DNA from: Maritalea mobilis
GTDB lineage: Bacteria; Pseudomonadota; Alphaproteobacteria; Rhodobacterales; Rhodobacteraceae
DNA length: 64,000 bases
Reading direction: 5' to 3'
Assembly (NCBI RefSeq): GCF_019800885.1
Contig: NZ_JAHVKE010000001.1
Location: forward strand, 1,364,001 to 1,428,000
A program made the position numbers and the translations under genes. Under the pieces are notes generated by a model. It worked only from the letters and a program-made list of their open reading frames with translations. It did not search any database and was not told the DNA's origin. Positions 8,234 through 36,347 of the stretch are shown piece by piece. Every line of letters begins with the position of its first letter. Positions within the stretch are counted from its first letter, which is position 1.

Positions 8234-8622
8234 AAAATCCATGCGCGGCAGGTGCCCCCGAATGGCGTCAGCAATTGAAGGTATTGCTTGCGGCCGGGTA
8301 GTTTGAGTTTTGTGACTGCGTCGCGTTGCAGGCCATGGGCGATCACCCCTAGGCCCCTTCGAGACTGCGGCGATCCTGTTCGGTGCGGTTCTGGCGGTCA
8401 CGCTGGCCAAGACCTTCGCTGAATTCTTGGCCCATGCGCTGGATGCGGGCGAACCTGTGCCGCGCGCTGCATGGCGGGCGGCTTGCCGACCGGCGGTCGA
8501 AGTCCTCGAACGCCGCTTCCTCGGCGTGTTGGGTAACGTGTCACGCTACAGAGGCGGGCTGGTCTTGCTGGATGTTCAGGGACATGCGCTGCTGCATTTC
8601 GTCGAGCCATCAGACTAACCCT
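8234..8622 (+). other. Gap with a possible membrane-protein remnant
   Basis: From about 8360 to 8618 a plus-strand frame without a convincing start reads ETAAILFGAVLAVTLAKTF, a likely membrane helix, then ends HALLHFVEPSD before a stop at 8618. It could be the 3' end of a truncated integral membrane protein. I recognise no family and see no ribosome site. Confidence 0.25.
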
Positions 8623-10299
8623 TTAGCGCAGATCGTTCGAACACCCGGCCTGAAACCCGTTGTCGCAATGGGCGATCAGGCGCTGCGTATCGGCGGGGGT
8701 CCAATTCGCGGGGTTTGTGACCTGAACCCAGGGCCCCACGTAGTCTGGGCCATAATAGGCATGCCCGTGGCCCGGCGGCGAGCCGAAGGACAAGGCCATG
8801 TCCAGGGCCAACTGAAACTGAGTGACAACGGGCATGAAGACGAAATGCTCGGACATGTCGGCGGCGGGGGGATCGCGCATCCATTGCGGCGCCCGCCAGA
8901 GCGAAGCGGGTTCGTAGAACACCACCGGATCACTGGAATACTGCAAGAACACGATACGCATGTTCCCCCACTCGGCCGGGGCCTCGGACGCGTCGCTGGT
9001 GTGCGATGCGTACCGCACCAACGATCCGTCCCCCACTTCAGGCAGGACCCACGGACTACCCGGATTGCGCTGGTTCTGAACATAGGACCAGAAGGCCGAT
9101 GGAAAGGGTGGGCCGACCCAGAAGGCGCCGTCGATCGGATCGTCGAGCAATCGGAACAGGTTGGTGGCATGCATGGACGACCACGCCCCAAGGCTGAGGC
9201 CATGCACGTAAAGGCGTGGCCGCTGATCGGGCGGCAGCGTCTGCCAATATCCATGCACCACCTCCTGTAGGGCGGTCGCCTGTTCGAGGCCCGTATTGGT
9301 CTCGAGGATCAGGGCAAGGGGGGATTGAAGGTAGGAATACTGCACCGCCACTGTCGCGATATCGCCGTTATGCATGTACTCGACCGGGTCGTGCGAGCCG
9401 GGGTCCATCCAGCCGGTGCCGGTGGGGCTGGCCACGATCAGCACCTCCCGCTGGAAGGCGTCGAGGCGGATCAACTCGGCCAAGGCAAGCTCAGCGCGGT
9501 CCAATGGCGTGTCCGCATTCGCGCGGCCAACATAGACTCGGATTGGGTCGAGGGCGTCGCGGCCCGTGAAGGCCGAGATCACCTCTGCATCCGGCCCCGT
9601 GGTGATGAAATCACGCCCCGGTGTGCCGATCCCCCCCCAATCGATCAGCGACGCGGCGCTGCCGACCGTCATCGGGTCATTCGGAGGCGGGGGGGCTTGA
9701 TCGAATAGCGCCTGCGCGGCCTCGTAGCTCTCATCGAGGCCGAGGATGACCCGGTCCAGAATGCCGTCGCGCGTGATGACGAACAGCAGTGCAACGACCG
9801 TGACAAAGCCCAACACATTGGCACGTCGGGGCGGCATGATGCGATAAAACCGCTGTCTGATCAGGCGAAAGAGCGAGGCAACCAGGCGCCCGACAAAGAA
9901 GCAAGCGGCAAAGGTTGCGAGAGCGATCGTCACGATGCGTGCAAGGTACAGACCGTCCGCCAGCTCCATACCCATCTTCTCGCGCAGATCGTTCTGCCAT
10001 GTCAGGCTCGACCCAAGAACCCACGTAAACAGGATCAGGACAAAGATTGAAACAATCCATGTCGCGATGCGCGCGGGACGGCCTTTCAGCTCAGGCAAGT
10101 CGGCCGCCCGCCACGGCAGCGCAACGACCTTTCCTGCGAGATAGCCAAGCGCCGTCAGCAAGCCGCCGAGCACACTCTGCGTTTCAGGGCCGCGTGGGAT
10201 CAGCGAGGGCGTCAGAGATGCCGCGAAAAAGACAAGGCCCAACAAAACACATGGCACCGAGACAGGACCGATCATGCGGGAAAAGGTATTTGCCAGCAT
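8623..10299 (-). CDS. Membrane-anchored alpha/beta-hydrolase family protein
   Basis: Protein of 558 residues from the ATG at 10299, which follows the strong ribosome site AGGAGGT; an upstream ATG at 10350 lacks one. The N-terminal half has several membrane segments (VLLGLVFFAASLTPSLIP, IATWIVSIFVLILF, IVTIALATFAACFFV, VLGFVTVVALLFVI), as in the paired alpha/beta-hydrolase N-terminal and catalytic domains. The catalytic part carries the nucleophile elbow YVHGLSLGAWSS. The natural substrate of this family is unknown; lipid or ester hydrolysis at the inner membrane is plausible. It is divergent from a second hydrolase gene that starts 97 bases away. Confidence 0.85.
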   Translation of the reverse strand: MLANTFSRMIGPVSVPCVLLGLVFFAASLTPSLIPRGPETQSVLGGLLTALGYLAGKVVALPWRAADLPELKGRPARIATWIVSIFVLILFTWVLGSSLTWQNDLREKMGMELADGLYLARIVTIALATFAACFFVGRLVASLFRLIRQRFYRIMPPRRANVLGFVTVVALLFVITRDGILDRVILGLDESYEAAQALFDQAPPPPNDPMTVGSAASLIDWGGIGTPGRDFITTGPDAEVISAFTGRDALDPIRVYVGRANADTPLDRAELALAELIRLDAFQREVLIVASPTGTGWMDPGSHDPVEYMHNGDIATVAVQYSYLQSPLALILETNTGLEQATALQEVVHGYWQTLPPDQRPRLYVHGLSLGAWSSMHATNLFRLLDDPIDGAFWVGPPFPSAFWSYVQNQRNPGSPWVLPEVGDGSLVRYASHTSDASEAPAEWGNMRIVFLQYSSDPVVFYEPASLWRAPQWMRDPPAADMSEHFVFMPVVTQFQLALDMALSFGSPPGHGHAYYGPDYVGPWVQVTNPANWTPADTQRLIAHCDNGFQAGCSNDLR

Positions 10300-26639: not shown

Positions 26640-29609
26640 CTAGCCCTGTCGCGCCTGCCTTTGCGCCCGCTGGAAGAAATGCCGCGTTGCTTGCTCCCTG
26701 GCGTCCTTGTCGGTCATGACGATGTTCCGCATCTCGTTGTCTTGTTGGAACATCTTCACCATGCCTTGGAAGAACGCCTGCGAGAACGCGTTATAAACGA
26801 CATCCGCCGGATTGTTCCGCACCATCTCGGTCATGTCTTCGTCCATGATATCGCGGGTCACCCGCTCGAACCGAAGGAAGTCTTCGCGTGAAAACTGGGT
26901 GCCGTGCCGCTCGTTGAACGACTCAATAATCTCGGACAGCGATTTCTCTTCTTCCTCGGTGTAGGGGTTCGCGCCAAACTCGGTGATCGGGTCGAGCGTT
27001 CGGGTCTCGCCCGCGCTCAAGGATGCGCTACCGTCTTCGCCGTTCTTCAACTTGAACGCGGACAGGTTCAGCATGTCGTCGGTGATCGTGATGTCGGCGG
27101 GCACATCGCGGGACGGCAGCAGGCGCGACAACCACGATGTATAGGCATAGAGTTTTTCCAACCACGCATCGTTGAGCGACACGACCTGCGCCACGAAGGC
27201 GTAGAACCGCTGGAAACTCTTCAAGAGTTGCCGGAACTCTTCCTGTTCCGCCTCATCTTCGTCCAGTTCGAAACGCTCAACGGCAAGACGGACTGTGCCT
27301 TCCAGCGTGAGGCGGTCTTGGGTTGTCAGGTCGCCTTTGAAAAACTGATCGGCAAACCGTTCGACCTCATCTTTTTGGATATAGGTCGCGTTCGAAATGC
27401 GCTGTTCCAGATCGTAGATTTGGTTCAGGTCGGTCCGCTCTTCGAGCGCGGTCGCCTCGAAGAAGGGCGCGAAGGCCTCTTTGACCTCGTCCATCGTGTT
27501 CTGGAAGTCGAGGACGAAGGTTCGAGTCTTGCCGGGGTGGGTCCGGTTCAGACGAGCAAGCGTCTGAACCGCCTGCAAGCCGGCGAGTTTCTTGTCCACA
27601 TACATCGCAACGAGTTTCGGTTGGTCGAACCCAGTCTGGTATTTCTCAGCGACGACGAGGATCTGGAACTCTTCTGTGTCGAACTTCTTCGGCAGTTCCG
27701 TTTCTGCGAACCCGTTCGCGGTTGCCTCAGTCCAGACATTGCCATCGATGTTGAGATCGCCTGAGAACGCGACCAGTGCCTTGAGATCGGCATATCCCTT
27801 TTCCGCGATGTAGTCGTTCAGGCGCTGCCAGTAGCGAAGGGCATGTTCGCGACTCTGGGTCACGATCATCGCTTTCGCCTTTCCGTCGAGTTCCTTGGCA
27901 ACGTGACGGCGGAAGTGTTCGACGATCACCTCGACCTTCTGATCGATGGCGGTCGGGTGCAGCGAGGCGTAGCGGGCGACCCGCGCCTGTGCCTTGCGGC
28001 CCTTGAAGGCAGGATCATCCTCGATGGTTTTCTCAAGTTGATAGTATGCCTTGTAGGTCATGTAGTTCTGGAGCACGTCCAGAATGAACCCTTCCTCGAT
28101 TGCCTGACGCATCGAATAAAGGTGGAACGGGTGGGGTTTGCCGTCTGACCCGATCCGCCCGAAGCGTTCCAGCGTCACGTTGCGCGGTGTCGCGGTGAAG
28201 GCGAGGAACGAGATGTTCTTCTGCGGCCCACGCGCTTTCTGGAACGCGAGAACCATGTCTTCAATGTCCTCCGAACTCGTGTCGTCGCGGGTCAGCGCGT
28301 CGGTCATGCCCTGCGCTGCCTTGCCTGACTGGGACGAATGCGCCTCGTCGATGATCACGGCGAAGTTTTTGCCGCCCTGACCGGAGATTGTCTTCAAGTG
28401 TTCAGTGCCGAACTTCTGGATCGTCGTGATGATGATCCGGGCGCCTTTCAGGATCGCGTCTTTCAGGTCGCGAGAGGTGCCATCAATCTTCTTCACGACG
28501 CCCTCGGTCTGGGCAAACCCGCCGATGGTGTTCTGCAACTGTCGGTCCAGCACCAAGCGATCGGTCACGATGATCGCAGTATCAAACAGCGGTTGGTCGT
28601 TCTCATCATGCAGGTTGATGATCTGGTGGGCGGTCCAGGCGATGGTGTTTGATTTGCCTGACCCTGCGCTGTGCTGAATGAGGTAGTTCTGCCCTGCCCC
28701 CTTGGATCGCGCGTCCGCGAGAACTTTGCGCACGGCGTCGAGTTGCTGGAAGCGAGGGAAGATCAGAACCTCTTTGCCGTTCCCGCGTTCCAGATGGATG
28801 AAACGCCCGATCAGGTCGAGAAGCACCTCGCGCGAGAACACCGCGCGCCCATCCGGCAGATCCTTGTAGAGGTAGGCGACCCGGTTCTCACCCGGCACAT
28901 CGGGGTTTCCGGCTCCACCGTCGCGACCACGGTTGAAGGGCAGGAACCGCGTCTTGCCGTTCATCAGGCGCGTGGTCATCGACACGTTGTCCTGATCCAC
29001 CGCGAAATGGACGATGGCACCGCGTTTGAAAGTCAGCAGTGGTTCGCCAGCGGGGGAACGGTCTTTCCGATACTGCTTCTCGGCGTGTTTGACGTTCTGC
29101 CCGGTCAGTAGGTTCTTCACCTCCAGCGTGGCGACCGGGATGCCGTTGACGAAGGTCACCAGATCGATGGCGTTCTTGTTCTTCGCCGAGTAGGCCACCT
29201 GCCGCATCACGGATAGGATGTTTGCCTCATAGAGGCGCGTCAGGTCCGGGTTCAGGTTCGACGCGGGTTTGAAGAAGCACAGCGCGAAACGGATGTTCGG
29301 CACCAGTTTGATGCCCTCGCGCAGCACGACATGGGTCGGGTTGTCCTTCAGCGCCTTGTCGAGACGCTTCAGAACCTCTGCCTCTGCCTGCGCGCTGTAG
29401 TGGTCTTCCAGCACCTGCCATGCGTCGGGTTGCGTGACCTTCAGAAAGCGGAACAGCAACTCGGTGTCGAGGGCATGGGCAACGTCATAGTGGGACGGGC
29501 AGTCGCGCTCAATGTATCCCTGATCGCCGGTCAGGCAGGCGACGATATGCGCCTCGAAGACCTTCTCTTGATGAATGTCGGCGGTGGTGTGGATCGTCGT
29601 CACGAACAA
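26640..29609 (-). CDS. hsdR: Type I restriction enzyme R subunit
   Basis: Protein of 989 residues. The endonuclease motif is D149 to E163-V-K165 in FVNGIPVATLEVKN. The helicase part has the Walker A QHSAGSGKSNTIAW, the DEAH box VIIDEAHSSQSG and motif III FLAFTATPRN, then LARLNRTHPGK. It cleaves and translocates DNA with HsdM and HsdS. The frame is intact and all motifs are present, so it is probably active. It is the last gene of the operon, 6 bases after the small accessory gene. A fragment of a related hsdR is found at 36197-36347. Confidence 0.95.
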   Translation of the reverse strand: MFVTTIHTTADIHQEKVFEAHIVACLTGDQGYIERDCPSHYDVAHALDTELLFRFLKVTQPDAWQVLEDHYSAQAEAEVLKRLDKALKDNPTHVVLREGIKLVPNIRFALCFFKPASNLNPDLTRLYEANILSVMRQVAYSAKNKNAIDLVTFVNGIPVATLEVKNLLTGQNVKHAEKQYRKDRSPAGEPLLTFKRGAIVHFAVDQDNVSMTTRLMNGKTRFLPFNRGRDGGAGNPDVPGENRVAYLYKDLPDGRAVFSREVLLDLIGRFIHLERGNGKEVLIFPRFQQLDAVRKVLADARSKGAGQNYLIQHSAGSGKSNTIAWTAHQIINLHDENDQPLFDTAIIVTDRLVLDRQLQNTIGGFAQTEGVVKKIDGTSRDLKDAILKGARIIITTIQKFGTEHLKTISGQGGKNFAVIIDEAHSSQSGKAAQGMTDALTRDDTSSEDIEDMVLAFQKARGPQKNISFLAFTATPRNVTLERFGRIGSDGKPHPFHLYSMRQAIEEGFILDVLQNYMTYKAYYQLEKTIEDDPAFKGRKAQARVARYASLHPTAIDQKVEVIVEHFRRHVAKELDGKAKAMIVTQSREHALRYWQRLNDYIAEKGYADLKALVAFSGDLNIDGNVWTEATANGFAETELPKKFDTEEFQILVVAEKYQTGFDQPKLVAMYVDKKLAGLQAVQTLARLNRTHPGKTRTFVLDFQNTMDEVKEAFAPFFEATALEERTDLNQIYDLEQRISNATYIQKDEVERFADQFFKGDLTTQDRLTLEGTVRLAVERFELDEDEAEQEEFRQLLKSFQRFYAFVAQVVSLNDAWLEKLYAYTSWLSRLLPSRDVPADITITDDMLNLSAFKLKNGEDGSASLSAGETRTLDPITEFGANPYTEEEEKSLSEIIESFNERHGTQFSREDFLRFERVTRDIMDEDMTEMVRNNPADVVYNAFSQAFFQGMVKMFQQDNEMRNIVMTDKDAREQATRHFFQRAQRQARQG

Positions 29610-29615
29610 TTTCCT

Positions 29616-30146
29616 TCAGCTAATGGATTTTAGCCTATTCCGGAGTGTTATCACCCGCTCTCCCAAGATATGATATTGTCTGGCCAGATTTTCCCTTTGC
29701 GCTGTTAAATCGCGGATTTCTGCTTGTAGAGCAGCAATGGTTTCCGCGCGTTCTCCATGAGGCATGATCTTTGCGTTGCCTGCGCTCTGAGCGGTGTGCT
29801 CACAAAGTTCAGGTTGCGCCAGCACCCAAGCCTCGGGGCCTACAGCACGCACTTCTTTCTTCACGCTTGGATGCATTTTCTTGAACGGATTGGGGAGCGG
29901 CTTGCCTGCCGCAAGTGCGGCGGCCACGGCTTTGATGTAGTTCAAGCGTGTTGCGTCACGCCGCTCCTGAAGGGTTTGGTTTTTCTTTTTCCACTTAGTA
30001 GTTCCAGCCGGAGCGACGTTTGTTCGCTTGGTTTTTTTCCCCTTCGGCGGTGGGTTGCGTGGGCCAGGTTCATCAACAGGCGCGTAGCCTTGGTCACGAA
30101 TCTTCTGCTCGAAGTTGGCCCGTGTCCAATTCATTCTACCGGCCAC
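29616..30146 (-). CDS. Small basic coiled-coil protein between hsdS and hsdR
   Basis: Protein of 176 residues from the GTG at 30146, or 172 from the ATG at 30134. The N-terminal half is very basic and Pro/Lys-rich (RNPPPKGKKTKRTN, TKWKKKNQTLQER), which suggests nucleic-acid binding. The C-terminal 50 residues form a likely coiled coil (IAALQAEIRDLTAQRENLAR, then ILGERVITLRNRLKS). No family is recognised. It is inserted between the core type I genes in the same direction, 6 bases before hsdR, so it is probably co-expressed and may modulate the enzyme. Its function is unknown. Confidence 0.65.
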   Translation of the reverse strand: MAGRMNWTRANFEQKIRDQGYAPVDEPGPRNPPPKGKKTKRTNVAPAGTTKWKKKNQTLQERRDATRLNYIKAVAAALAAGKPLPNPFKKMHPSVKKEVRAVGPEAWVLAQPELCEHTAQSAGNAKIMPHGERAETIAALQAEIRDLTAQRENLARQYHILGERVITLRNRLKSIS

Positions 30147-30185
30147 TTGAACCTCGCCATGCTTTGCTTGTGTGGAGAACTGAAA

Positions 30186-31499
30186 TCAAGCGCCCATCTC
30201 CTCTTGAATGGCGTCGAGGCGGCGGTCGGGGGTGCCGGATTTGGCGTAGGTCGCCACGTCGATCTGACCTGTGACAGCGGCGGCAATCAGGGCGGAGCGG
30301 TATTCTTTGAGGCGGTCGATGGATTGTTCGTTCTTGGTCTGTAGATGCGTGATTTGTCCAATCCGTTCTTCGACATATTCCGAGATCAGTCGCTGCTCTT
30401 CATATTCAGGCACCGCAACTCGGATTCTGCCGAAGTTGTCGGCATTCAACCGCATGAACCCAGAGTGACCGGTGCCCAAACCCTTCGACAGAAGCCGAAA
30501 TGCTGCCATCATTGGTTCCGTCTTGAACAGTCGAAGGAAGTAGGCAGCGTGGGCGTTAGAATCCACATCGAAGATTGAGTAGTCGGGACTGACGATGCCA
30601 GCACTATTGGCCAGACCGAACAGTCCGATCGCCGCCCTCATTCGGTTCATCACGATCTGACCGGGAAATACCTTCTTGTAGTTGATGAGATCACTTGGCG
30701 GGATTTCCTTGTCTGAAACATCGTTGTGAGGAAGCAACCCTTCCTTCATCCGCAACGAGAACAGAGTCTCCTGACCGTCACTGCTATATTGAGTGTTCTC
30801 GCGGAAGAAATGTTTCAGGCGATAGACGTTCCAGTGTCGTGGTCGGTGCGAAGTCCATTCCAGTTCGTCCTCCGGAACAAGTTCTGCATCAGGATCAATA
30901 CCAAGAGTGACCGCGCGCAGAATGTCATCTTCGAGTTTCTCCCCCAGCAACGCCACCAACCGCTGCTTTTGCTCGATCAGCAGGTCTATTCTTGCGGTCT
31001 CACGGTCCAGAAAGTCGGCGATCTGGCGTTGGGTCGCGAGGTCGGGGACATTTATCGGGATGCTCTTGATACCGCCTAGCGTAAGACCGTAGCGGGTGAC
31101 GCCGTTTGCGGCATTTCCGAAGTCCTCCTGCGATTTCTTCGAGAGCAAATGCCAATAGAGAAACGGACCGATCATGCGTCGACGATCAGCGCGCAAGATC
31201 GAAAGATGATACCCGCACACCAAATCATCTGCAGTTGATTTCACGAGTGCTGGAACGCCGATATCGTCCGCGGTCTCGGAGTCCTTAGTGATGATTACGT
31301 CATCAACCTTCACCCTGAACTTCTTGATTTCGGCTGCGGTTGCACTGCCCAGTTTGAACGGCATGTCGTTGTGGATGAAGTTGTTCTTGTAGACATCAAC
31401 GTAGTTGCAAAGACGGACCGGATGCTCGTCGGGGTCGACGACCTTATCTACGTTACTGGTCAGAACCATTGCCACATCGCGCAGTCGGTGCGTTGTCAC
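30186..31499 (-). CDS. hsdS: Type I restriction enzyme specificity subunit
   Basis: Protein of 437 residues with two target-recognition regions, each followed by a conserved helical spacer: VPDLATQRQIADFLDRETAR, then LIEQKQRLVALLGEKLE, and near the end VPEYEEQRLISEYVEERIGQ. This two-half layout recognises a bipartite DNA site. The start is a GTG that overlaps the hsdM stop. It is followed by a 39-base gap before the accessory gene. Confidence 0.93.
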   Translation of the reverse strand: MTTHRLRDVAMVLTSNVDKVVDPDEHPVRLCNYVDVYKNNFIHNDMPFKLGSATAAEIKKFRVKVDDVIITKDSETADDIGVPALVKSTADDLVCGYHLSILRADRRRMIGPFLYWHLLSKKSQEDFGNAANGVTRYGLTLGGIKSIPINVPDLATQRQIADFLDRETARIDLLIEQKQRLVALLGEKLEDDILRAVTLGIDPDAELVPEDELEWTSHRPRHWNVYRLKHFFRENTQYSSDGQETLFSLRMKEGLLPHNDVSDKEIPPSDLINYKKVFPGQIVMNRMRAAIGLFGLANSAGIVSPDYSIFDVDSNAHAAYFLRLFKTEPMMAAFRLLSKGLGTGHSGFMRLNADNFGRIRVAVPEYEEQRLISEYVEERIGQITHLQTKNEQSIDRLKEYRSALIAAAVTGQIDVATYAKSGTPDRRLDAIQEEMGA

Positions 31500-33517
31500 T
31501 CGACCACCTCCTGCAGCAGACCGGCGATCTCTGCTTCCAGCGCCTTCAACTCGGCGTCGATTTCTTCCAGCGGCCTCGGTGGCACGTATTTGTAGAAATA
31601 GCGGTTGAAGTTGATCTCATACCCGACACGCCCGACGCCGCCGTCTGCTGCGTCGGTGTAACTCTCGTCCACCCAGGCATCGGGAACGAAGGGTTTTACC
31701 TCGCGTTGCACGTATTCCGCCCAGTGTTCATCTAGCGGCACCAGTTCGTGATCGCGCAGATCGGTGTCGGGTTCGGGATTGCCGTTCTTGTCGGAGCAGA
31801 CCTCGGCGTCTTCATCGCGTTCGGACAGGGCAGACAGGATTGCCTTCCTGACCGGCGCACCGACCTTGACGCCCGCGCGACGGAGGGCGGCGGAGAGCGC
31901 CTTGTCGAAGTCGTCCCGGACGATCCATCGTTCGTCGGCAGGCAAGTGATCCTGCAACGCGTCCAGAACGCGGGACTGGTCGTCTTCATCGAGTTTCTGG
32001 AACGGTTTCGCCTCGCGCAGCGTCTCCAACGCCTCGGGCGTGACGGCAAAGGCGAGTTTCAGCGGGCGTTCAACGCGGATTTCGCGATACCCGAAGTCGG
32101 TGGTGTCGAAGATCTTGGATACGTCACCCCAGTCGCCATCGCCGTTCAGCATCTCGGCATAGATGCGGGCGATCTCATCACACGCCTCGGCCGGGATTTC
32201 GCGGCGCTTGGACCCGAGCGACTTGCGCATCGATTTCCAGAACCGCTCGCCGCTGGCGTCGATCAGTTGCACCTTGCCGCGACGCGCGGTGTCTTTGCGG
32301 TTGGTTAGCAACCAGACATAGGTCTGAATGCCGGTGTTGTAGAAGAGGTCGGTCGGCAGCGCGATGATCGCCTCGACCCAGTCGTTTTCCAGCATCCACC
32401 GGCGGATCTCGCTTTCACCCGACCCGGCACCGCCGGTGAAGAGGGGTGACCCGTTCATGACGATTCCGATGCGCGACCCTTGTTCGTCGTTGCGCATCTT
32501 GGAGATCATGTGCTGCAGGAACAGCAGCTGCCCGTCCGAGATGCGGGGCAGACCCGCGCCGAAGCGCCCGGACATGCCCAACTCCGACGCTTCTTCCTTG
32601 ATCGGGTCTGCATACTTCTTCCAGTCCACGCCATAGGGCGGGTTCGACAACATGTAGTGGAAGCGTTTGGTCGCGTGGGCGTCTTGGGTCAGCGTGTTGC
32701 CAAAGGCGATGTTCTCAGGGTTGTGCCCGGTCACCAGCATGTCGGACTTACAGATCGCGAAGGACTCGGGGTTGAGTTCCTGCCCGAAGAGTTCGACGCG
32801 GATGCGGTCGTTCAGCGCCTTCATCTCCATTTCGGCGATGGAAAGCATGCCGCCCGTGCCTGCGGCAGGGTCGTAGACTTGCCGGATAACACCCGATCCG
32901 GTCAACGCTTCCTTGTCGTTGATCAGCAGGAGCGAGACAATCAGGCGGATGACCTCGCGCGGGGTGTAGTGTTCACCCGCCGTCTCGTTCGAGATTTCCG
33001 AGAAGCGACGGATCAGGTCTTCGAACAGATACCCCATCTCGAGGTTGGAGATGGCGTTCGGGTGCAGGTCGATCTGGGTGAACTTGTCGAAGACCTGATA
33101 GAGCAGACCGGCGTCATTCAGGCGCTTGAGTTGATCGGTGAACAGGAACTTGTCGAGGAAGATATCGCGGACATTGCCCGAGAACTTGGTGATGTAGTCG
33201 ATCAGGTTCTTGTGGATGTCCTTGGCGTCCTGCCCCTTGAGAGAGGCGAAGGTGAAGCGGGACAGGTTGTAGAGACGGATGTCTTGCCCCACGACGCCGG
33301 AAAGGAGGGTGTCGCGCGCATCGTCGTCCATATCGTCAGGCAGGTTGCCTGCCATGCGCAGCACTTCGGGTTTGGTCTCTTCGAGGATGCAGTCGAGGCG
33401 ACGCAGAACGACGAAGGGCAGGATGACCTTGCCATACTCGGATTGCTTGAAATCGCCGCGCAGGAGTTCAGCGATCGACCAGACGAAGGAGCCGAGAGAT
33501 TTAATGTCCGTACTCAT
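31496..33517 (-). CDS. hsdM: Type I restriction enzyme DNA methyltransferase subunit
   Basis: Protein of 673 residues. The N-terminal HsdM region (SIAELLRGDFKQSEYGKVIL) is followed by the N6-adenine methylase with the S-adenosylmethionine motif YDPAAGTGGML and the catalytic MLSNPPYGVDW. It is longer than many HsdM proteins (about 500-550) because of a C-terminal extension of about 150 residues with a regulatory-looking acidic segment. It methylates adenine at the HsdS target to protect host DNA. It overlaps hsdS. Confidence 0.94.
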   Translation of the reverse strand: MSTDIKSLGSFVWSIAELLRGDFKQSEYGKVILPFVVLRRLDCILEETKPEVLRMAGNLPDDMDDDARDTLLSGVVGQDIRLYNLSRFTFASLKGQDAKDIHKNLIDYITKFSGNVRDIFLDKFLFTDQLKRLNDAGLLYQVFDKFTQIDLHPNAISNLEMGYLFEDLIRRFSEISNETAGEHYTPREVIRLIVSLLLINDKEALTGSGVIRQVYDPAAGTGGMLSIAEMEMKALNDRIRVELFGQELNPESFAICKSDMLVTGHNPENIAFGNTLTQDAHATKRFHYMLSNPPYGVDWKKYADPIKEEASELGMSGRFGAGLPRISDGQLLFLQHMISKMRNDEQGSRIGIVMNGSPLFTGGAGSGESEIRRWMLENDWVEAIIALPTDLFYNTGIQTYVWLLTNRKDTARRGKVQLIDASGERFWKSMRKSLGSKRREIPAEACDEIARIYAEMLNGDGDWGDVSKIFDTTDFGYREIRVERPLKLAFAVTPEALETLREAKPFQKLDEDDQSRVLDALQDHLPADERWIVRDDFDKALSAALRRAGVKVGAPVRKAILSALSERDEDAEVCSDKNGNPEPDTDLRDHELVPLDEHWAEYVQREVKPFVPDAWVDESYTDAADGGVGRVGYEINFNRYFYKYVPPRPLEEIDAELKALEAEIAGLLQEVVE

Positions 33518-33791
33518 GAAACCTTATGTGCCTCCAAGGTGCGCGCAATAGCTGTTTGGTCGGTTTTTCGGGAGCTTAACGAGCGCTGCGGGAGGCATCC
33601 ACCCTGCTTGCCACATGACGCATGCGCCACATTGCCGGAACGACAACCACAAAAAACCGGAGCTTGAACCGCTGCCTGACTCTGAAATTCATAGCGAAAG
33701 AAGCCATCGCCATTGAGGCTGCATGGTTGGCCTTCGCCCAATGACAACCGCAGCCGACCCGTCGCCTCAGAGTTTGCCCACGCTCCGCCTA

Positions 33792-34652
33792 CTAAGCTCC
33801 ACCTCTTACAGCATCGCCATTCAAAAGCACGATCTGCTGGTCCTGCGGACTGCGTGCGCCGGGGTCGGTGTCTAACCCCAGTCGCTTTAGAGCGTAATAA
33901 AGAAGCGCGCGCCGCACCGGGATCTTGGCGACGCCATCCGTCATGCCGTAATCCATTTCGAACACCCGCTTTTGGGCATCCGACAGATCGGGATGTGGAC
34001 CGATTTCCAGAACAACCTCTTCCAGCCAATCCACATCTTCTTCCGGACTGGAGCCACGCGCGGCCCCCACCTCGACGTCGAGCATGCGCGAGAGAACGAA
34101 ATCCTTGAACATCGCGTCCTTGAGGCAGAACGCCCGCGCGTGCCATCGGAATCCGTCGAAGGCCAAAGCGTGTGGCTCGATCACCCTCTCGCCCGGCTCC
34201 GGGCGGGACATCGATTGGTAGGTCACCGAAAGCGCCCGCCCTTCCACAATCGCCGTGTAGACATCGCGGAGCACCGACGGATCTACACCGCGCGCCGGCA
34301 CGGGTGTGCCCGCAAAATCGGGAAGGACCGCGATCCAGGACTGCTCGGGCGCAACCAGCCCGTCTTCGACCGCCCGAACCTGCGCCAGAAACCCGGCGGC
34401 GTCCGGCTCGTAATATCGCGGCTTGAAAGCTTTGCCACGCCGGTAGCACTTCGCCTGCTTGTCGTAGGTCAGGTTCGACTTGCGGCCTTCGAGATAGGTG
34501 TTGATGTCGATCGACGCCTGCTGGGTCGACAGGCTGAAGGCCTCGATCAGATCCGACCGGTTCAACCGCCCCGTCCAGAACAGGCGGAACTCGATGAACT
34601 CGTATCGTTTCTCCGCGCTCCACCGGGGCCCTGTCCTCTTGCGGCGACTCAT
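33792..34652 (-). CDS. WYL-domain transcriptional regulator (BrxR/CapW-like)
   Basis: Protein of 286 residues. The N-terminal winged helix-turn-helix (RFLFW-type start: EFRLFWTGRLNRSDLIEAF, then QQASIDINTYLEG) is followed by a WYL domain (SVTYQSMSRPE, then VIEPHALAFDGFRWHARAF). The order and length match the BrxR/CapW regulators that control phage-defence loci and respond to a nucleic-acid-type ligand. It lies 275 bases upstream of hsdM in the same direction, and most likely represses the restriction operon. The gap between them could hold the promoter and operator. Confidence 0.85.
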   Translation of the reverse strand: MSRRKRTGPRWSAEKRYEFIEFRLFWTGRLNRSDLIEAFSLSTQQASIDINTYLEGRKSNLTYDKQAKCYRRGKAFKPRYYEPDAAGFLAQVRAVEDGLVAPEQSWIAVLPDFAGTPVPARGVDPSVLRDVYTAIVEGRALSVTYQSMSRPEPGERVIEPHALAFDGFRWHARAFCLKDAMFKDFVLSRMLDVEVGAARGSSPEEDVDWLEEVVLEIGPHPDLSDAQKRVFEMDYGMTDGVAKIPVRRALLYYALKRLGLDTDPGARSPQDQQIVLLNGDAVRGGA

Positions 34653-34778
34653 TAATCCAGACCGATCTTAGGCACGCCTCTTCGGTGTGTCCATTTTTTA
34701 GATTGACTCATTTTTATGTCGCATCCACGTTCGCGCCGTTAACGATTACTTGATAACACAACATCTGGGGTACACACC

Positions 34779-35171
34779 ATGAAAACACGCAACCTGAGCG
34801 CCGCCGCAGCCCTTCTGGGTGGCCTGACGATTCTGTCGGGCTGTGCGACAGTGACGCGCGGCACGGAGGACGTTCTGGAAATCGTGACGGAACCCGCCGG
34901 TGCCGAGGTTCAAACTTCGAACGGTTTTAGCTGTGGCAGCACGCCGTGTGCGATCCGCATGCCCCGCCGCTCGGAATTTGTGGTGACGATTACGCGCCCG
35001 GGATGCCGACCTGCTCAAGTCAACGTTACGCATCGCACAGCCGATGCGGGTGCTGCGGGCATTGCAGGCAACGTGCTTGTTGGCGGCGTCATCGGCCTGG
35101 GTGTTGATGCGGCCACTGGGGCGTCGCAAGAGCTCGTGCCAAATCCCGTCGAGATCGAGTTGGACTGCTGA
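34779..35171 (+). CDS. Lipoprotein, unknown
   Basis: Protein of 130 residues with a lipoprotein signal peptide (LLGGLTILSGC, lipobox L-S-G-C). The mature part has two cysteines (SCGSTPC) and the PEGA-like segment EIVTEPAGAEV, then a glycine-rich hydrophobic stretch (NVLVGGVIGLGVDAATG). Similar small lipoproteins are common in this group; their function is not known. The short leader and no neighbour in the same pathway leave it as a hypothetical envelope protein. Confidence 0.75.
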   Translation: MKTRNLSAAAALLGGLTILSGCATVTRGTEDVLEIVTEPAGAEVQTSNGFSCGSTPCAIRMPRRSEFVVTITRPGCRPAQVNVTHRTADAGAAGIAGNVLVGGVIGLGVDAATGASQELVPNPVEIELDC

Positions 35172-35719: not shown

Positions 35720-36199
35720 TCGGATGCGCGTTTTGCACACGGCGGATTCGCCCAGATCGCGCAGGCCGTGACGCTTGCACTCCTCGTCGAACGCGCAAAC
35801 CTGCACCTGCAAGACCTCAAGCCGCGATACCAGCTCGAGACTGCGCCGTCGGACCTAGCTCTCCATGTTCTAGACCTCGACATGGCTGGCGACCGGCGCA
35901 CGACCCGCTCCCTCTCGGGTGGCGAACGGTTCTTGGTCTCGTTGGCCCTCGCCCTTGCCCTGTCGGGCATGGGCACACATGGTGCTCTCGCCGGCACGCT
36001 GTTCATCGACGAGGGCTTCGGCTCGCTCGATGCCGACAGCCTGGATCTCGCAATCGATGGGCTGGAACGACTTCAGTCGCAAGGACGGACCATTGGCGTC
36101 ATCAGCCACGTGCAGGCAATGAAAGATCGGATCCCGGTTCAAGTGGAGGTGGTCAAAACCGGCGGGGGGGGGGCGAGCAAGGTCCATCTGATGACATGA
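35720..36199 (+). pseudogene. sbcC: SbcC-type ATPase, 3' fragment
   Basis: After an in-frame stop at 35717-35719, the frame reads FAQIAQAVTLALLVERANLH, then the ABC-type signature RSLSGGERFLVSLALALALS and the Walker B LFIDEGFGSLDADSLD, then IGVISHVQAMKDRIPVQVEV. This is the C-terminal nucleotide-binding half of exonuclease subunit SbcC; the N-terminal Walker A half is missing. A run of ten G at 36164-36173 near the end may have shifted the last codons. It cannot be functional alone. Confidence 0.85.
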
Positions 36200-36347
36200 A
36201 GGCGAGGAACGAGATGCTCTTTCGCGGTCCACGCGCTTTCTAAAACACCAAAACCATGTCCTCGATATCATCAGAATTGGTGATATTGCGGGTCGGTGCG
36301 TCGTTCATCGTCCCTGCCGCCTTGCCGGACAGGGACGAATGCGTCTC
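36197..36347 (-). pseudogene. hsdR: hsdR fragment, decayed
   Basis: About 151 bases match the hsdR segment 28196-28346. On the minus strand THSSLSGKAAGTMNDAPTRN, then DIEDMVLVF, a stop, then KARGPRKSISFLAF corresponds to AHSSQSGKAAQGMTDALTRD onwards in the intact gene. The DEAH residues are altered and an in-frame stop interrupts it. It is an old remnant of a second type I system or of a deleted duplicate. Confidence 0.85.

Follow-up and report, generated by a model that had tools for sequence, protein, structure and literature searches.

Is the small gene that lies between hsdS and hsdR in a type I restriction operon of Maritalea mobilis a working part of the restriction enzyme, or an extra that can be replaced? 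The window, i.e. the whole stretch of 64,000 nucleotides that was analysed, carries on its minus strand, in this order, a WYL-domain regulator (33792–34652), hsdM (methyltransferase subunit, 31496–33517), hsdS (specificity subunit, 30186–31499), the gene in question, here called X (29616–30146), and hsdR (26640–29609). The Hsd assignments were taken from Pfam and PADLOC. A sequence-only reading of this DNA had proposed that X encodes an accessory DNA-binding factor of the enzyme. Our analysis favours a swappable extra, perhaps a new antiviral gene, over a working enzyme part, and we are highly confident that the hsdS–hsdR position is an exchangeable cargo slot with X as one occupant.

Gene X and its operon

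X is an intact open reading frame of 176 codons, located on the same strand as its neighbours hsdS and hsdR, as the sequence-only reading had described. Its GTG start is supported by a GAGG located 5 nt upstream (30152–30155, minus strand), which from the sequence is the likely ribosome-binding site, and by the beginning MAG(K/R), which X shares with its homologue in locus L015 (see below). The TGA stop is directly followed by AGGA (29612–29615, minus strand), the likely ribosome-binding site of hsdR, and then by hsdR itself; because of the spacing from this AGGA, the start of hsdR is likely the GTG at 29603–29601 rather than the TTG at 29609. The spacing of the genes suggests that X would be co-transcribed with the hsd genes. 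X has a GC3 of 0.54, compared with 0.78–0.81 for hsdR and hsdM, and that of hsdS is also lower (0.64). As an antisense reading frame overlapping X (29757–30344) has a GC3 of 0.62, codon-position GC alone cannot settle which of the two is coding.

The WYL protein encoded upstream of hsdM belongs to the CapW/BrxR family, its sequence matching solved chains of CapW (E 1.1e-61 and 3.9e-58) and BrxR (E 3.3e-44); this likeness concerns the upstream gene of the operon and not X. Given this homology, a CapW/BrxR-like regulator may control the operon, and X would be co-expressed with the hsd genes under it. Type I enzymes are reported to make up 34 of 210 BrxR-associated systems (PMC9122601). No inverted repeat of at least 8 bases, separated by no more than 60, was detected in 34560–34800. 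A tblastn search with the regulator against the DNA around the 79 related hsd loci described below gave no match at E ≤ 1e-3; when repeated with the window as control, it recovered the full regulator in the window and, in the loci, only matches with E 2.2 or worse.

Two further features were noted near this end of the operon. The open reading frame Y369 (33514–34623, 369 aa), considered as a second orphan gene, was judged to be a wrong frame, since its codon-position GC is unlike that of a gene and the overlapping 33792–34652 encodes the WYL regulator. At 36189–36347 (minus strand) lies an isolated HsdR remnant of 53 residues with a stop inside its stretch and 68% identity to residues 422–474 of the intact HsdR, which is what remains of a second hsd copy that has decayed.

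The hsdS–hsdR position in related operons

Loci were fetched with the HsdR of the window, and the best 80 of 93 relatives were kept, giving 79 distinct loci; the search used exact short peptides and therefore sampled only this HsdR type. The hsdS–hsdR distance could be read in 73 of the 79 loci, while L023, L029, L034, L059, L062 and L069 were dropped because the HsdS or the HsdR start was undetected. We distinguished 21 close relatives (HsdR 85–95% identical in the best segment) from 52 distant ones (62–71%) and called a slot filled at an hsdS–hsdR distance of 250 bp or more.

A homologue of X was present in a single one of the 79 loci (L015) among these best 80 of 93 relatives. The slot was filled in all 21 close loci, each with an open reading frame of at least 99 aa, and 20 of them lacked X. 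Among the 52 distant loci, some of which share identical values and are not independent (e.g. L051, L052, L064, L065, L071, L077), 39 have at least 250 bp between hsdS and hsdR, one has 138 bp and 12 have less than 100 bp. Nine of these 12 have no gene between hsdS and hsdR. Hence, the rarity of X, the filled slots without X in close relatives and the empty slots in distant ones show that this type of enzyme does not need X. A core or obligate subunit would be expected in most operons, a distribution that the survey of 79 loci did not yield.

In the other three of the 12 loci, L042, L047 and L072, the open reading frame holding HsdS extends up to hsdR (681, 1103 and 648 aa, respectively); here cargo has perhaps been fused to, or replaced by, the HsdS extension.

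Of the 71 loci in which the hsdM–hsdS gap could be read, 17 had a gap of at least 400 bp; in the others the value was negative, meaning that the two genes overlap by this measure. The hsdS–hsdR position is thus the principal site of insertion, and the 17 loci (L007, L008, L013, L016 and 13 distant ones) show a further one between hsdM and hsdS.

Occupants of the slot

Slot reading frames of at least 70 aa without Hsd similarity fell into 26 single-linkage clusters, some of which consist of one fragment, and 30 slot reading frames were searched with Pfam. Matches above the cut-off were GmrSD_N (L015, L020, L024, L036), HNH_2 (L049, L082), Mrr_cat (L046), DarT (L010, L038), in L038 together with Macro, KwaB (L073), CAP12 TIR (L058), Abi_C (L070), DUF4160 (L006), VCH_CASS14 (L009), HD (L011) and DUF433 (L055). 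GmrSD, HNH, DarT, DUF4160 and others are found in slots of close relatives; TIR, KwaB and Abi_C occur in more distant ones. Below the cut-off we found DUF5615 (L055), CBS (L019) and HEPN_RiboL-PSP (L084). The DUF433/DUF5615 content of the L055 slot is presumably of toxin–antitoxin (TA) type. For a group of 203-aa proteins the label HEPN-like rests on one sub-threshold match (E 0.058) together with an R-x4-H stretch, which we take to be HEPN-like.

Ten of the 30 reading frames had no Pfam match with the limits used (L007, L012, L013, L015:6613–7002, L018, L029, L037, L043, L049:9382–9993 and L080), showing that recognised defence genes do not account for all occupants. Altogether, 44 of the 79 loci contribute a member to a cluster whose representative is of nuclease, TIR, Abi, Kwa, Dar or TA type. 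Three of these, L007, L008 and L016, are counted only via linkage of a 136-aa protein that has no match in L007, and L034 is not readable; leaving out these four, 40 of the 73 readable loci remain.

Exchange of cargo

Exchange was read from blastn comparisons of the window operon with the loci. The last 138 bp of hsdS (30186–30323) form the left flank of the slot and are 77–96% identical in close relatives, and in 20 of the 21 close loci the match stops at most 9 bp from the hsdS stop codon; the exception is L021, where it stops 66 bp short. The first codons of hsdR form the right edge, with the match resuming at most 20 bp from the annotated hsdR start in all 21. Two comparisons illustrate what happens between these borders. 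L006 (Nioella ostreopsis), whose hsdR shows 89% DNA identity to that of the window, carries a DUF4160 protein in place of X. L015 and L084 share 92.0% identity over 2920 bp, comprising the hsdS end, a gene for a 129-aa protein and a GmrSD gene, and 94.0% over 3178 bp that include hsdR and the sequence beyond it; between the two matching flanks, L015 carries the X homologue and L084 the HEPN-like 203-aa protein. The content of the slot thus differs between closely related operons, the pattern of embedded cargo.

In L049, a 56-aa reading frame (8287–8457) in which an hsdR start is joined to an hsdS end lies between two cassettes, the first of which resembles that of L009 (82.7% over 568 bp). The simplest reading of this fusion is a recombination scar between stacked cassettes. 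Breakpoints at the hsdS stop and the hsdR start, together with this one scar, suggest that cargo is swapped by recombination between operons that carry different cargo. Cargo genes would be replaced as units by homologous recombination in the conserved 3′ end of hsdS and in the hsdR coding sequence.

The specificity domains of HsdS seem to be swapped independently of the cargo. The second part of hsdS (window, approximately 30186–31046) is 82–83% identical at the DNA level to that of L015 and L079 and 71% identical to that of L046, whereas in most other loci with a match it is confined to the last approximately 140 bp of the gene. In L059, a reading frame (9775–10233) combines parts of hsdM and hsdR and represents either a deletion fusion or an assembly error in a MAG.

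These data bear on the possibility that X acts as a modulator specific to this restriction enzyme, in which case it would bind DNA or the HsdMS complex, tune restriction and be needed only with this HsdS. The operonic position and a likely translational coupling of X to hsdR are consistent with such a role, and PrrC, an embedded protein reported to be kept silent by the type I enzyme linked to it, provides a precedent (PMC2610378). Moreover, the window and L015, the two carriers of an intact X, share an HsdS part (81% aa identity over residues 113–437), which keeps this explanation alive. However, L079 has the same HsdS part (82% DNA identity) without X, in L084 the HEPN-like gene stands in the place of X between flanks 92–94% identical to those of L015, nine of the 52 distant operons have no slot gene at all and three more have only the extended HsdS frame. 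With X found in one of the 79 related loci, we regard a dedicated modulator as unlikely. What stands of the accessory DNA-binding factor proposed earlier is therefore the location and the basic, possibly nucleic-acid-binding character of X; its dedication to the enzyme is not supported by the survey.

Homologues of X

The one intact homologue of X that was found (L015:9387–9926) is located directly before hsdR on a Rhodobacteraceae MAG contig; it is 29% identical to X and contains a codon that translates to an unknown residue. Aligned over the full length, the two proteins score 178, compared with a maximum of 78 in 2000 shuffles, and residues 1–58 score 76 (maximum 54 in 2000 shuffles). The coiled coil scores 26, a value reached by 434 of 2000 shuffles, so that the evidence for homology lies outside this part. 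A third copy, in G228, is a broken remnant with one internal stop, which scores 115 against X (shuffle maximum 59). In the 14.7 kb around this remnant, which lies approximately 2 kb from the contig end, no convincing hsd match was detected. The sequence-only reading had named homologues lying mostly outside restriction operons as a finding that would speak against it; instead, both intact copies occupy the hsdS–hsdR slot, the broken G228 copy being the one without hsd genes nearby. The link between X and the slot thus rests on two cases.

Searches in larger collections gave no further copy. No homologue was found in genome_contigs with X alone, in plasmids and phages with either X or its L015 homologue as query, or in viral_contigs with profile A1 and with the L015 homologue, and the own genome contained only X itself. 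In whole genomes, X alone had matches in 4 of 390 genomes of the order, and profile A1 in 2 of 385 of the class, 4 of 394 of the family, 1 of 398 of the phylum, 1 of 5 of the own genus, 1 of 5 of the genus of G228 and 2 of 389 of the order of G228. The E limit was 0.001, or 0.01 for the family, the own genus and the genus of G228; the own genome is counted in every draw that contained it, the draws overlap, and in the large draws the best 8–9 first-look candidates per genome were scored, so that distant homologues can be missed. All matches beyond the own genome and G228 were inspected and judged to be due to chance. They lie in L003 and L004 (Pro/Lys-rich stretches), L092 (antisense to a 512-aa reading frame) and L085, L087 and L088 (short or coiled-coil stretches).

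X also fits no known family, as had been noted before. All Pfam and NCBIfam matches were far below the cut-off, PHROGs gave none, and the sole PADLOC match, LmuB with 13.1 bits over residues 114–174, was not convincing; the L015 homologue had no PADLOC match at E ≤ 0.001. X matched no Hsd model in Pfam, NCBIfam or PADLOC and is thus not homologous to Hsd subunits, nor did Pfam and NCBIfam reveal a helix-turn-helix or a known regulator family. No catalytic motif was recognised. The coiled-coil families ZapB and DivIC resemble the coiled-coil end of X only, and membership was rejected because the Pfam gathering scores were missed (16.7 vs 31.5 and 13.9 vs 28.9 bits, respectively). To our knowledge X has not been described; the literature search covered the operon arrangement and the regulator.

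Predicted architecture of X

X and its L015 homologue begin with a common motif, MAG(R/K)-x-NW(T/S)-x2-N-x5-R-D-x-G (residues 1–22, 30081–30146), in which the AlphaFold model, based on an alignment of two sequences, places one short helix (residues 9–19). A Lys/Pro-rich linker follows (residues 23–54, 29985–30080; pLDDT <50), which is likely disordered. The Lys/Pro-rich N-terminus recognised by the sequence-only reading is evident in residues 1–67, with 17 K/R, 6 D/E and 7 P, and the pI of the whole protein is 10.4. Residues 59–126 (29769–29972) form the best conserved core (score 107 vs a shuffle maximum of 47), with the pattern NYI..V..AL..G...P.PFKK....VKK ... AWV..QPE and with predicted helices between residues 59 and 124. 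The C-terminal coiled coil, residues 130–175 (29622–29759), had likewise been correctly recognised: 11 of 14 a/d positions are hydrophobic, and AlphaFold predicts one confident long helix (block pLDDT 87–97). Here the heptad pattern is kept in the L015 homologue (9 of 14) and the sequence is not.

The fold as a whole is of low confidence (pTM 0.30), and the model of the L015 homologue shows a similar layout with a pTM of 0.28. Foldseek found no structural match in the PDB at E ≤ 0.001. A profile search of solved structures returned 13 weak matches (E 0.0016–0.94), which include many coiled coils such as Clusterin-associated protein 1, ZapB and Jun and were treated as uninformative. Judging from its composition, X most likely binds nucleic acid via the Lys-rich N-terminal part, and the coiled-coil prediction suggests that it is most likely an oligomer held together by its C-terminus.

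X might also be a passenger without present function, a fast-decaying mobile gene. This would fit its great rarity, the broken state of one of the three known copies and its GC3, which is low compared with hsdR and hsdM, though hsdS is also lower. The two intact copies, however, have retained the conserved core and the heptad pattern at only 29% identity, which points to past selection, and we consider a functionless passenger quite improbable.

Function of X

The arrangement of genes embedded in type I operons is already known. Miller et al. are reportedly the source for the rlo (R-linked ORF) genes of Campylobacter jejuni hsd loci. These are described as extra reading frames between hsdR and hsdS, in the same place as X, and as part of a hypervariable region (PMC5183652, PMC4619093). 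RloF is a GmrSD/DUF262 protein, a type found in slots of relatives (e.g. L015) and distinct from X, which matches no family; among rlo proteins, this comparison covers RloF only. Genes embedded in type I operons have also proved to be defences: TgvAB lies within a Vibrio cholerae type I operon (PMC11411939) and DarTG2 between hsdS and hsdR in the RRDM island of EPEC (PMC12255303), in the same position as X, and both loci are reported to be active against phages. In contrast to these systems, X consists of one small protein that lacks an enzyme signature and is known from sequence alone.

The sharp borders of the slot, the fusion scar and the many recognised defence genes among its occupants lead us to favour, on balance, an exchangeable slot passenger with an accessory antiviral or anti-plasmid function, exerted by an oligomeric nucleic-acid-binding protein beside the restriction enzyme and not as its subunit. 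Judged by its position, a defence function of X itself is plausible, with somewhat less than an even chance. The small number of intact copies (two), the broken copy without hsd genes nearby, the lack of a motif and the weak fold count against it. More speculatively, X could found a new single-gene antiphage family, in which a coiled-coil oligomer uses a disordered Lys-rich arm to bind invading nucleic acid or its replication machinery and is encoded in a recombination-shuffled plug-in cassette under CapW/BrxR-type control.

The least probable explanation is a local regulator or immunity protein that, for example, delays HsdR synthesis after operon entry or silences other cargo: X is small, basic and coiled-coil and lies just before hsdR, and its L015 homologue directly follows a GmrSD-type nuclease, but X resembles no regulator in the family searches, it has no cargo partner in the window, and the operon already has a CapW/BrxR-type regulator.

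The slot occupants without assignment, among them X, a 99-aa protein and a 136-aa protein, make up a small, testable set of candidates for new defences. The 99-aa protein occurs in L011 (8344–8643) and L012 (9697–9996), the two copies being 56% identical to each other. By eye, an N-terminal coiled coil is followed by a Lys/Arg-rich stretch, the mirror image of X, and phmmer with X detected no similarity to it. The 136-aa protein is conserved in three operons (L007, L008 and L016:9594–10004) and clusters with the 129-aa protein encoded beside GmrSD in L015 and L084; neither Pfam nor PADLOC gave a match for the L007 copy.
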